DNA from: Selenobaculum gibii
Lineage (GTDB): Bacteria; Bacillota; Negativicutes; ICN-92133
Direction: 5' to 3'
Assembly (NCBI RefSeq): GCF_030273445.1
Contig: NZ_CP120678.1
Coordinates: forward strand, 2,209,501-2,273,500
Length of the DNA: 64,000 bases
Of this stretch, positions 51,705-56,232 are shown piece after piece (the stretch's first letter is position 1; each line of letters begins with the position of its first letter). Under the pieces are notes generated by a model that was not told the origin of the DNA, searched no databases, and saw only the letters and a list, made by a program, of their open reading frames with translations. The translations under genes were made by a program, and so were the position numbers.

Positions 51705-52241
51705 TTACTCTGGTTCAATTAAGGCATATCTGCCATCTTTACGGCGATACACAACATTGACTTCTTCACTCTTCGCATTTCTAAATACAAAGAAATCGTG
51801 ATTAATTAAGTTCATTTGCATAATCGCTTCTTGAACATCCATCGGTTTTACTGGGAATTTTTTCGTCTTTGCGACTGGATATTCTTCTGATTCATCATTT
51901 TTTTCTACAACAGGAGCTGTTGCGGTTTCAAATTTAAACCCGCCTGTACGAAAACGTTTCGTTAATTTTGTTTTATGTTTATGAATTTGACGTTCTAATT
52001 TTTCAATCACAAGATCAATGGAAGTATACATATCCATTGTGGATTCTTCTCCTCGAAGCAACATACCATCTACAGGTACAGTTACCTCAACAATATGCCG
52101 TCCTTTCGTCACAGTAAGTAATGCGGTAATTGCCCCAACATCATCAAAATATTTTGTTACTTTGCCAACTTTTTTTTCTACATAATCTTTTAATGCTGGA
52201 GTGATTTCAATGTTTTTTCCTCTAATAGTGAATGTTGCCAT
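51705..52241 (-). CDS. hpf: Ribosome hibernation promoting factor, long form
   Basis: Ribosome-associated factor of 178 aa that dimerises 70S ribosomes in stationary phase. The N-terminal S30AE domain starts TFTIRGKNIEITPALKDYVEKKV. A linker (~100-120) leads to the C-terminal dimerisation domain with MQEAIMQMNLINHDFFVFRNA-type sequence and the tail YRRKDGRYALIEPE. Start ATG 52241 has AGGGG 9 nt upstream; the ATG at 52250 touches that site. Confidence 0.94.
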   Translation of the reverse strand: MATFTIRGKNIEITPALKDYVEKKVGKVTKYFDDVGAITALLTVTKGRHIVEVTVPVDGMLLRGEESTMDMYTSIDLVIEKLERQIHKHKTKLTKRFRTGGFKFETATAPVVEKNDESEEYPVAKTKKFPVKPMDVQEAIMQMNLINHDFFVFRNAKSEEVNVVYRRKDGRYALIEPE

Positions 52242-52263
52242 AGCACCCATCCCCTTTCCTGTG

Positions 52264-52575: not shown

Positions 52576-52776
52576 TTAAGCTGTTTTTGTAACGTTAGAA
52601 GCTTGTGGTCCACGTGCGCCATCAACGATTTCAAACTCAACGCCTTGACCTTCAGCTAGAGTTTTAAATCCTTCATCTTGAATAGCGGAAAAATGTACGA
52701 AAACATCGCCACCATCTTCTCTTTCAATAAATCCGTAACCTTTTTCTGCGCTAAACCATTTAACTTTACCAATCAT
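52576..52776 (-). CDS. Cold-shock protein (CspA family)
   Basis: 66-aa nucleic-acid chaperone. RNP-1 KGYGFIERE and RNP-2 VFVHFSAI are both present, and the fold ends VTKTA. Start is ATG 52776 (MIGKVKWF), with TAGGAGG upstream. Confidence 0.94.
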
Positions 52777-52878
52777 TATGAAATTCCTCCTAGAAATAAA
52801 CTGGCACATCGAACTCGATGACCACGTTATCCATTATATCCATGATGGAACTATTTGTCAACCTCAAAAACCTTGTGT

Positions 52879-53598
52879 TTAAAGGATTTTTGATAAAAAT
52901 GTTTTTGTCCGTTCCTCTTGTGGCGATTCAAAAATCGCTTTCGGAGATCCTTCTTCAACAATTTTACCTTCATCGACAAAAAGCACCCTGTCACCAACCT
53001 CACGAGCAAATCCCATTTCGTGAGTAACTACGACCATTGTCATCCCCTCTTTTGCAAGGCTCTTCATAACATCAAGCACCTCGTTTACCATCTCTGGATC
53101 AAGCGCAGAAGTAGGTTCATCGAAAAGCATAATTTTAGGCTTCATCGCCAGTGCTCTAGCAATTGCTACACGTTGTTGCTGCCCTCCAGATAATTGAGAT
53201 GGATATGCATTCGCTTTATCTTCAAGCCCGACTTTTCTAAGCAAACTCAATGCAGTTTCTTTCGCTTCCTCTTTGGAAATCATTCTTACTTTCATCGGTG
53301 CTAATGTAATATTTTCCATCACCGTCATATGTCCAAATAAATTAAAGCGTTGAAAAACCATCCCTACTTCAGTACGAACTTTATTGATATTTGATTCATT
53401 GCTCAATGGAATTCCGTCCACAATAATTTCGCCATCTGTCGGCTGCTCCAAATAATTAATGCAACGCAATAACGTACTTTTCCCGGAACCACTTGGTCCG
53501 ATAATAACAACGACTTCTTTTTCTTCTATTTCTACATTAATACCTTTTAAAACTTCAATCTTACCAAAAGCTTTATGCAAATTTTTAATACTTATCAT
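52879..53598 (-). CDS. Polar amino acid ABC transporter, ATP-binding protein
   Basis: ABC ATPase of 239 aa: [29 protein letters not shown] and [13 protein letters not shown], typical of the GlnQ/HisP branch. It overlaps the permease gene by 14 nt. The specific amino acid cannot be read. Confidence 0.93.
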
Positions 53599-54250
53599 CT
53601 ATTTTGTACCTCCGCTCCAAATACGCAACTAAGCGGGAAATAGTAAGTGTCATAATCAAATAAATAAAAGCTACACTAATCCAAATTTCCAACGAACCAT
53701 ATGTACGCGCAATAATTAGCTGCCCACGACGTGTAAGCTCTTCAAATCCGATAACTGAAACTAGTGAAGAATCTTTTAACATCGCAATAAACTCGTTACC
53801 AAGTGGTGGAATAACACGTTTAAATGCCTGCGGTACAATAATATAACGCATCGTCTGCCCCCAACTCATCCCAAGTGAACGTCCTGCCTCCATCTGACCT
53901 TTATCAATTGACTCAATCCCAGCCCGAAAAATTTCTGCAACATAGGCACCACTATTAATACTACAAGCAGTAATCGCAGCAATAAACGGATCAACCCTCA
54001 TACCAGTAATTATCGGTAATGCAAAATACATAATAAAAATCTGCACTAAGAGTGGCGTTCCACGAATAAAGTCAACATAAACTGCCGCCAGCGTCCTTAT
54101 CGGCCAAAACTGTGCTAATCGTGCAATTCCCGCAAATAAGCCGATAAACAAACCTAACCCAACACTAATTAGCGTGATTTTTATCGTTACTATTGCACCT
54201 TCTAATAATAATGGCATTGAATTTGCCACCAAGGAAAAATTAAAATCCAT
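53585..54250 (-). CDS. Polar amino acid ABC transporter, permease
   Basis: 221-aa permease of the HisM/GlnP type with about five membrane segments and the EAA-loop sequence [34 protein letters not shown]. Start is ATG 54250, after AGGATGG. A terminator-like hairpin separates it from the binding-protein gene, which would give less permease than binding protein. Confidence 0.92.
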
Positions 54251-54419
54251 ACATATCCATCCTAACAATTCATAATTACTAACCATTCTTGTATATTCAT
54301 ACTAATGATTATAGTAAAAAGGAGAAAACGTGTCAACGAAAAAAGTGGCTATAGATCTTTTATTCAAGGCTTAATAAAAGATTTTCTCTCTACTTTACCT
54401 TAAAACGCTCCAAAACTCT

Positions 54420-54668
54420 CTACGATTTACACCTATGCATAAAAACTCTCTCAAGATATGCATGCGAAAGGGGTTGCAGTACTATGCAACCCCTTTTCGT
54501 TTTATGTATTTTACTTTTGACCAAACCATTTTGATAGATTTTATCGTACTCACCATTTGCCTTTAATTCAGCTAATGCCTTGTTAACTTTTGCTACAAGC
54601 TCTGTATTGTTTTTATCAAAAGCAATTCCATAATCTTCCGAAGTCAATGCAAGTAATCTTTTTGACAT
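54420..54668 (-). pseudogene. Truncated and frameshifted duplicate of the amino acid binding-protein gene
   Basis: The frame starts like the neighbouring binding protein (MSKRLLALT after GGAGGTG; compare MSRKLISLL) and jumps at once to its C-terminus (SEDYGIAFDKNN..NGEYDKIYQ; compare AEDYGIAISKKN..NGEYDKIFEKWFG). About 190 residues between are gone. One base is then missing: restoring it reads KIYQKWFGQK and a stop at 54511-54513, right before the terminator hairpin. The present frame instead runs through that hairpin to 54420. The shortened product could not bind substrate. This is a decayed tandem copy. Confidence 0.85.
54470..54499 (-). terminator. Terminator after the binding-protein genes
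   Basis: AAAGGGGTTGCA and TGCAACCCCTTT pair perfectly, with a short loop and T-rich flank, upstream of the permease gene. Confidence 0.8.
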
Positions 54669-54743
54669 AAATACACCTCCAAAGACATAATCTATAAGCT
54701 TTTGAAAGTTCATTAACAATAAAATTTATTTAATATTTAGCAG

Positions 54744-55517
54744 TTATTTTACTTGCTTACCGAACCATTTTTCAAAAATTTTATCGTATTCACCATTTGC
54801 CTGTAATTTTTCTAATGCTTCATCAATTTGTTTTGCAAGTTCAGGATTTTTCTTAGAAATTGCGATTCCATAATCTTCAGCTGTTAGGATTTCAGGGAAA
54901 GTTTTTGCGTCTTTAGTTCCACCTTGTGCTAGGAAATAATCATTTACAGGTCTATCATTTACAACTGCATCTACACCACCAGCTTTTAATTCTAAGAAAG
55001 TATCTGCAGAGCTGTTAAATTCTTTTACCGTAGCATCTTTAATTTCTCTTGCTTTATTTGCACCAGTCGTTCCAATTTGAACTGCAATTGTTTTTCCTTC
55101 TAAATCTTTAAAACTTTTAATTGTATCGTTGTCATTTCTAACAACAAATGTTAAACCTGATTGGTAATAAGGTTTTGAAAACGCTACTTTTTGTTTACGT
55201 TCTTCTGTAACTGTCATTCCACTAATAATCATATCAATATTACCAGCTTCAAGCGCAGGAATTAAACCATCAAAATTTACATTTTGAATATCTGCTTGAT
55301 AACCCATTTCTTTTGCAATTGCTCTGGCTAGATCCATATCAAAACCAACGTATTCTTTTCCATCAACATCTTGGAATTCAAACGGAGCAAAATCTGCATT
55401 TGTCCCAATTCTTAAAACTTTTGCATCACTCTTTTTCGTATCTGATCCACAACCTGTTACTAAAGCCATAACAACAAAAACACTAAGCATCAAAAGAGAT
55501 ATTAACTTTCTTGACAT
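54744..55517 (-). CDS. Polar amino acid ABC transporter, substrate-binding lipoprotein
   Basis: 257-aa exported lipoprotein. The signal peptide ends at lipobox ALVTGCGSD. The mature part is a family 3 binding protein: RIGTNADFAPFEFQDVDGKEYVGFDMDLARAIAKEM and ADIQNVNFDGLIPALEAGNIDMIISGMTVTEERK. Start is ATG 55517, after AGGAGG. It heads the transporter operon. The amino acid specificity is not determined. Confidence 0.93.
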   Translation of the reverse strand: MSRKLISLLMLSVFVVMALVTGCGSDTKKSDAKVLRIGTNADFAPFEFQDVDGKEYVGFDMDLARAIAKEMGYQADIQNVNFDGLIPALEAGNIDMIISGMTVTEERKQKVAFSKPYYQSGLTFVVRNDNDTIKSFKDLEGKTIAVQIGTTGANKAREIKDATVKEFNSSADTFLELKAGGVDAVVNDRPVNDYFLAQGGTKDAKTFPEILTAEDYGIAISKKNPELAKQIDEALEKLQANGEYDKIFEKWFGKQVK

Positions 55518-55579
55518 AAAAAAACCTCCTAATAATAATATATTTGATAATAATTTCTTAAAAAACATCCAACAAACAC

Positions 55580-55634: not shown

Positions 55635-55925
55635 TTATTGGCGTTGAGCGTTGAAGCAATCACGACAATAAACAGGACGATCATTGCGTGGTTGGAATGG
55701 TACTTGAGTAGTTACGCCACAGTTAGCGCAAACAACATCGTACATTTCACGTTGTGGTCTAGATTCGCCACCATCACGGTTACGTCTTCTAGAATCGCGG
55801 CAGTCGCGACAACGTACTGGTTCGTTTTCGAACCCTTTTTCTGCGTAGAATTCTTGTTCACCTGCGCTGAAAATAAAATCTTTTCCGCAGTCTTTACATT
55901 GAAGAGTTTTATCCTCGAAAGCCAT
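55635..55925 (-). CDS. Small zinc-ribbon protein
   Basis: 96-aa protein with two zinc-ribbon units: CKDCGKDF...CRDCRDSRRR and CANCGVTTQV...CYC-type YCRDCFNAQ. The first is of the zf-trcl kind. The linker is rich in Arg and Gly (RRRNRDGGESRPQRE), which suggests nucleic-acid contact. Function unknown. It follows a large structured RNA by about 30 nt and may share its transcript. Confidence 0.8.
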   Translation of the reverse strand: MAFEDKTLQCKDCGKDFIFSAGEQEFYAEKGFENEPVRCRDCRDSRRRNRDGGESRPQREMYDVVCANCGVTTQVPFQPRNDRPVYCRDCFNAQRQ

Positions 55926-55954: not shown

Positions 55955-56197
55955 AAGAATATGCCTAGCCGACCTGGTTTTTGACCCCACACTCGCCTGC
56001 TGGAAAGTTCGCTACTAGAAAGTCCTTCCCTCACTACTAAATCTCTCGGGTATCACATCAATTATGTACAAATAAATCCCGGCAGGTCTTACCTCTAAGC
56101 TGCACCATGATCAGAGCCTCTTTGGACTCCTTACGTGGATCGTTTTGCCTGCAACTGGCATCGACTTCCAACCACGGACCTAAGCAAATTGTTCTTA
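55955..56197 (-). ncRNA. Large structured RNA (~243 nt) upstream of the zinc-ribbon gene
   Basis: The ends pair: TGCTTAG near 56180-56187 with CTAGGCA near 55962-55968, extended by AAGAA/TTCTT. Inside are CGTGG/CCACG enclosing TGCC/GGCA, CCTGC/GCAGG, CGGG/CCCG and GGAAG/CTTTCC stems. There is no coding frame of note. A promoter with correct -10 and -35 lies so that transcription starts at the first base of the closing helix. It could be an independent RNA or a long leader of the zinc-ribbon mRNA. Size and ends recall classes such as raiA RNA, but I cannot confirm this. Confidence 0.7.
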
Positions 56198-56203
56198 ATC
56201 ATA

Positions 56204-56232
56204 AGTATAAATTTTTCCTACAAAAAAAGCAA
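56204..56232 (-). promoter_or_regulatory. Predicted promoter of the structured RNA
   Basis: Minus-strand TTGCTT, 17 nt and TATACT. The expected start site is at about 56197-56198, the 5' end of the RNA closing helix. Confidence 0.7.

Follow-up and report, generated by a model that had tools for sequence, protein, structure and literature searches.

The window, a 64,000-nt stretch of the Selenobaculum gibii genome, carries on its minus strand a structured RNA lying between a promoter and a small zinc-ribbon gene. In the direction of transcription, the features are:

56204..56232, minus: promoter TTGCTT-N17-TATACT, read from the sequence
56192..56196, minus: extended P1, 5' strand AAGAA, at the predicted transcription start
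55960..56188, minus: raiA (ModT) RNA, full length, RF03072 match of 229 nt
55955..55959, minus: extended P1, 3' strand UUCUU, outside the Rfam P1
55935..55945, minus: ribosome-binding site AAGGTGAGGGG of the zinc-ribbon gene, read from the sequence
55635..55925, minus: zf_Tbcl gene, 96 aa, PF13451 + PF23477 / CxxC-x17-CxxC (TIGR04272)
54744..55523, minus: amino-acid ABC transporter substrate-binding protein (SBP_bac_3), by domain match; the cluster recurs in relatives
53585..54286, minus: amino-acid ABC transporter permease
52879..53598, minus: amino-acid ABC transporter ATPase
52576..52809, minus: cold-shock protein
51705..52250, minus: hpf (raiA-family ribosome hibernation factor)

A cmscan of the window against Rfam, one of the checks proposed in an earlier note on this DNA, returned a sole match, to the raiA motif RF03072, which covered the model from end to end (positions 1-209 of 209) with 186.5 bits and an E value of 1.3e-47; the gathering cut-off of this family is 101.3 bits. 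The RNA is present in a single copy in the genome. In the Rfam alignment, the core stretches AAGUCGA, GUAAG, GCGAGUGUGGGG and CCAGGUC and the P1 and P3 helices are all present. By inspection, AGUUGC in the P3 loop can pair with GCAGCU in the P5-P6 junction through six pairs, one of them G-U, corresponding to the pk-1 pairing described between these two elements (PMC11751092). Folding energy offered no support of its own: the predicted value of -62.1 kcal/mol had a z-score of +1.99, and 196 of 200 shuffles folded at least as well. The several nested stems described in the earlier note were thus right in substance, but energy does not count in their favor, and the reality of the feature rests on homology. 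Energies no better than in shuffles are also what a chance fold behind a chance promoter would give; that reading is ruled out by the strength of the RF03072 match and by the finding of raiA in 181 of the 380 genomes examined from the class, and we assign it a negligible probability. Judged by its sequence, the segment is a raiA/ModT RNA, a class that had been suspected but not claimed and is now established, and this copy is an ordinary, new member of an already known family.

The positions given in the earlier note for the segment, for its complementary ends and for the promoter are correct. TTGCTT occupies 56232-56227 and is separated by a 17-nt spacer from TATACT at 56209-56204, with a predicted start at ~56197 that coincides, as had been proposed, with the foot of the closing helix (AAGAA, 56196-56192). 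A simple consensus scan missed this promoter, being tuned to the stricter TTGACA-like boxes. Across zf_Tbcl-linked loci the -10 box lies 10-18 nt from the Rfam start, so the predicted start falls at the base of the extended P1 or close to it. The extension itself is supported as a helix by comparison among 38 zf_Tbcl-linked relatives from 25 families: flanks past P1 pair with their own partner at a mean of -6.39 kcal/mol, whereas permuted strands reach a mean of -4.38 and, in the best of 300 permutations, -5.05. None of the 300 was as good as the own-genome pairing, a count that is not a strict probability, as the sequences are related and non-independent. No likely gene on the same strand overlaps the segment, as the earlier note had held, and 34 nt separate its end from the ATG of the two-zinc-ribbon gene, close to the ~30 nt originally estimated.

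The TIGR04272 match of the 96-aa protein falls within its PF23477 region. The best sequence matches in the PDB were eukaryotic-type zinc fingers, which covered only the cysteine-rich stretch and were not accepted as relatives. A GTGAGGGG motif similar to the ribosome-binding site of the window occurs in most zf_Tbcl-linked Negativicutes and in short-raiA loci. Parts of the gene order zf_Tbcl, ABC transporter, cold-shock protein and hpf recur in relatives; the hpf gene, noted earlier as lying 4 kb downstream of the RNA, therefore belongs to a recurring cluster and is not a chance neighbor. Beyond hpf, an 837-aa open reading frame reads from its sequence as a probable secA. Adjoining the full SBP_bac_3 gene, a 99-aa open reading frame (54420-54719, minus) matches only the C-terminal part of that family and may be what is left of a second copy; two full SBP_bac_3 genes seem to be present in some relatives. 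The genome has a second zf_Tbcl gene (G000:C1:1042647-1042787, minus), which lacks raiA and has a different leader.

Searches restricted to the family and the order of this genome found no genome other than itself. We assessed the conservation of this arrangement in 90 raiA loci, 60 from the class (about one per genus) and 30 sampled evenly across the phylum. An HMM match to zf_Tbcl lay within 150 nt downstream of raiA in 39 of the 90. Two further loci bring the linked set to 41 of 91: L060, where the zf_Tbcl start follows raiA and the contig stops inside the gene, and L227. The latter (G547:C21:8444-8702) is a divergent 259-nt raiA scoring 50 bits before zf_Tbcl, in a family represented in this comparison by one genome. 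Approached from the protein side, raiA was found just upstream in 38 of 80 public-genome zf_Tbcl loci from Negativicutes and Clostridia, which is not an unbiased rate because these loci were the best by similarity to the protein of the window. In linked loci a gap of a few tens of nucleotides separates RNA and gene. In all 41 a promoter match precedes the RNA, and in none does a terminator precede the gene, compared with terminators within 130 nt in 16 of 49 unlinked loci, by a scan that is crude and searched a shorter stretch in linked than in unlinked loci. Promoters in all linked loci and terminators in none make it likely, from sequence, that raiA and zf_Tbcl share a single transcript there. 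The comparison of upstream zf_Tbcl regions, also proposed earlier, found the arrangement of RNA and gene conserved across Bacillota. Of the two possibilities first offered, a free-standing RNA or a very long leader, the leader is supported as anatomy by the shared strand, the 34-nt gap, the lack of a terminator and the conserved arrangement.

A half-size raiA of ~110-121 nt (loci L234-L252) occurs in two families of Bacillota; it was detected in 8 of 9 genomes of family f71 and 11 of 13 of family f124 with scores of 39-59 bits, all below the Rfam cut-off. This form retains P1, the P1 extension, P3 and the CCAGGUCAGC end, and has a short replacement in place of the P4-P8 region. It stands directly before zf_Tbcl in 19 of 19 copies, with the start codon 44-49 nt past a conserved CAGC in 16; for the other three, the script had picked an upstream in-frame GTG as the start. 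A search for a pseudoknot by the longest complementary run was not above shuffles in these RNAs; in most copies the P3 loop contains GCCG, with a CGGC further downstream.

Such frequent adjacency might suggest that the RNA and the zinc-ribbon protein form an obligate functional pair, for instance an RNP, but the distribution rejects this. Within the 380 genomes of the class zf_Tbcl occurs in 288. Families f33-f35 keep raiA with zf_Tbcl almost absent, and genus g2 has raiA and no zf_Tbcl. Conversely, most Selenomonadaceae (family f20) have zf_Tbcl, and no raiA from this family was among the matches listed. Each partner is thus found without the other, the two need not coexist, and we consider an obligate pair very improbable. 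Several Selenomonadaceae keep zf_Tbcl, the transporter and hpf in order, and several of their zf_Tbcl genes have a short leader preceded by a promoter resembling TTGC..TATAAT, which is what one would predict if raiA and zf_Tbcl are served by the same promoter.

Other leaders upstream of zf_Tbcl were observed in passing. Short, raiA-free leaders of Selenomonadaceae (L255, L258, L264) share GACGUUCU and GGACAUCU stretches, which, judged by sequence, might pair as a closing helix at the start site. Leaders L158 and L177 have P1-like ends, CUUGUUCAG / CUGAGCAAG or similar, and no Rfam match; they are perhaps a further diverged raiA relative. Leaders L166, L174 and L178 looked tRNA-like by eye, and no tRNA was found in them by ARAGORN or at the Rfam cut-off, nor in L178 at a loose threshold.

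In Clostridioides difficile, raiA/ModT is an abundant trans-acting RNA expressed from a SigA promoter that affects growth transition and sporulation (PMC11706538), and raiA adopts a compact monomeric fold (PMC11751092, PMC12286853). By extension, RNA polymerase would start at ~56197 and make the raiA RNA, which would take its compact P1-P8 fold while transcription reads on into zf_Tbcl, so that the stable RNA would head the zf_Tbcl transcript. We assume a processing step in which raiA is then cut out, or survives decay, as a distinct RNA, which would act in trans as in Clostridium, from which this role is carried over; the one promoter would supply zf_Tbcl as well. We put the probability at roughly 80% that raiA is made from one promoter, leads the zf_Tbcl transcript and is released as a trans-acting RNA, a reading drawn from sequence and from analogy. 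Unlinked raiA occurs by itself, at some loci followed by a terminator of its own, which indicates that raiA can function without the zf_Tbcl link.

The leader position also makes it plausible that raiA controls zf_Tbcl in cis, as a leader that is autoregulated or works like a riboswitch. The fold and the extended P1 would then govern either how accessible the ribosome-binding site is or whether transcription continues into zf_Tbcl. The short, terminator-free gap is conserved, and the half-size RNA lacks most of the fold and is found only before zf_Tbcl. Rfam files RF03072 as Cis-reg; riboswitch, and a survey described transcription termination of a riboswitch-like kind for loci from families that include raiA (PMC12121620). 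For the 3' strand of the extended P1 (GGUCCUU), pairing with the ribosome-binding site is a conceivable alternative in many Negativicutes, and Shine-Dalgarno pairing in 22 Negativicutes linkers exceeded that in shuffles (0.66 vs 0.53, p 0.008). However, this pairing was non-significant outside Negativicutes, a purine-rich Shine-Dalgarno element will in any case be matched by a strand under selection for pairing with AAGAACC, and linker folding energy was no better than in shuffles (p 0.12 and 0.32). As a general switch, then, a Shine-Dalgarno-masking hairpin is a weak candidate, confined to Negativicutes. ModT works in trans in C. difficile (PMC11706538), and many raiA loci have no zf_Tbcl. 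On balance we lean somewhat against control in cis as the explanation of the arrangement. It is rather unlikely, in our estimate, that raiA has a second role, old and widespread in Bacillota, as a cis-acting zf_Tbcl leader, and that the half-size form kept only that role.

The closest known system is the raiA motif itself (RF03072; ModT of C. difficile and C. acetobutylicum raiA, cryo-EM structures 9CXF and 9ELY). Like known members, the RNA of the window matches the model end to end, with P1, P3 and the conserved single-stranded stretches, a promoter at its 5' end and hpf (the raiA gene) in the downstream cluster. Unlike them, it directly precedes zf_Tbcl with no terminator between, and has an extended P1 and a larger variable loop after UGCCG. 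Its upstream gene encodes a hotdog thioesterase and is not comFC; an upstream comFC, like a downstream raiA/hpf, is common at known loci but not defining. It resembles riboswitches and other cis-regulatory leaders in its likely 5' leader position close to a ribosome-binding site, and differs from riboswitches in that the candidate expression platform is not convincing, no ligand has been shown and the work published on the family describes action in trans. We found no paper joining raiA RNA to a zinc ribbon in the literature covered, which did not extend to the synteny study of Soares et al. 2024; the word "zinc" is absent from PMC11706538.

The leader position was less expected, and together with the half-size variant is the part worth following. 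RNAs of the raiA family are among the most conserved in bacteria with a biochemical role still to be found. A second role in cis, if true, would separate a cis part (P1, P3 and the gene-near region) from the rest of the fold. The conserved single-transcript link, and a half-size raiA found only there, offer a defined gene and a reduced RNA on which function can be tested.
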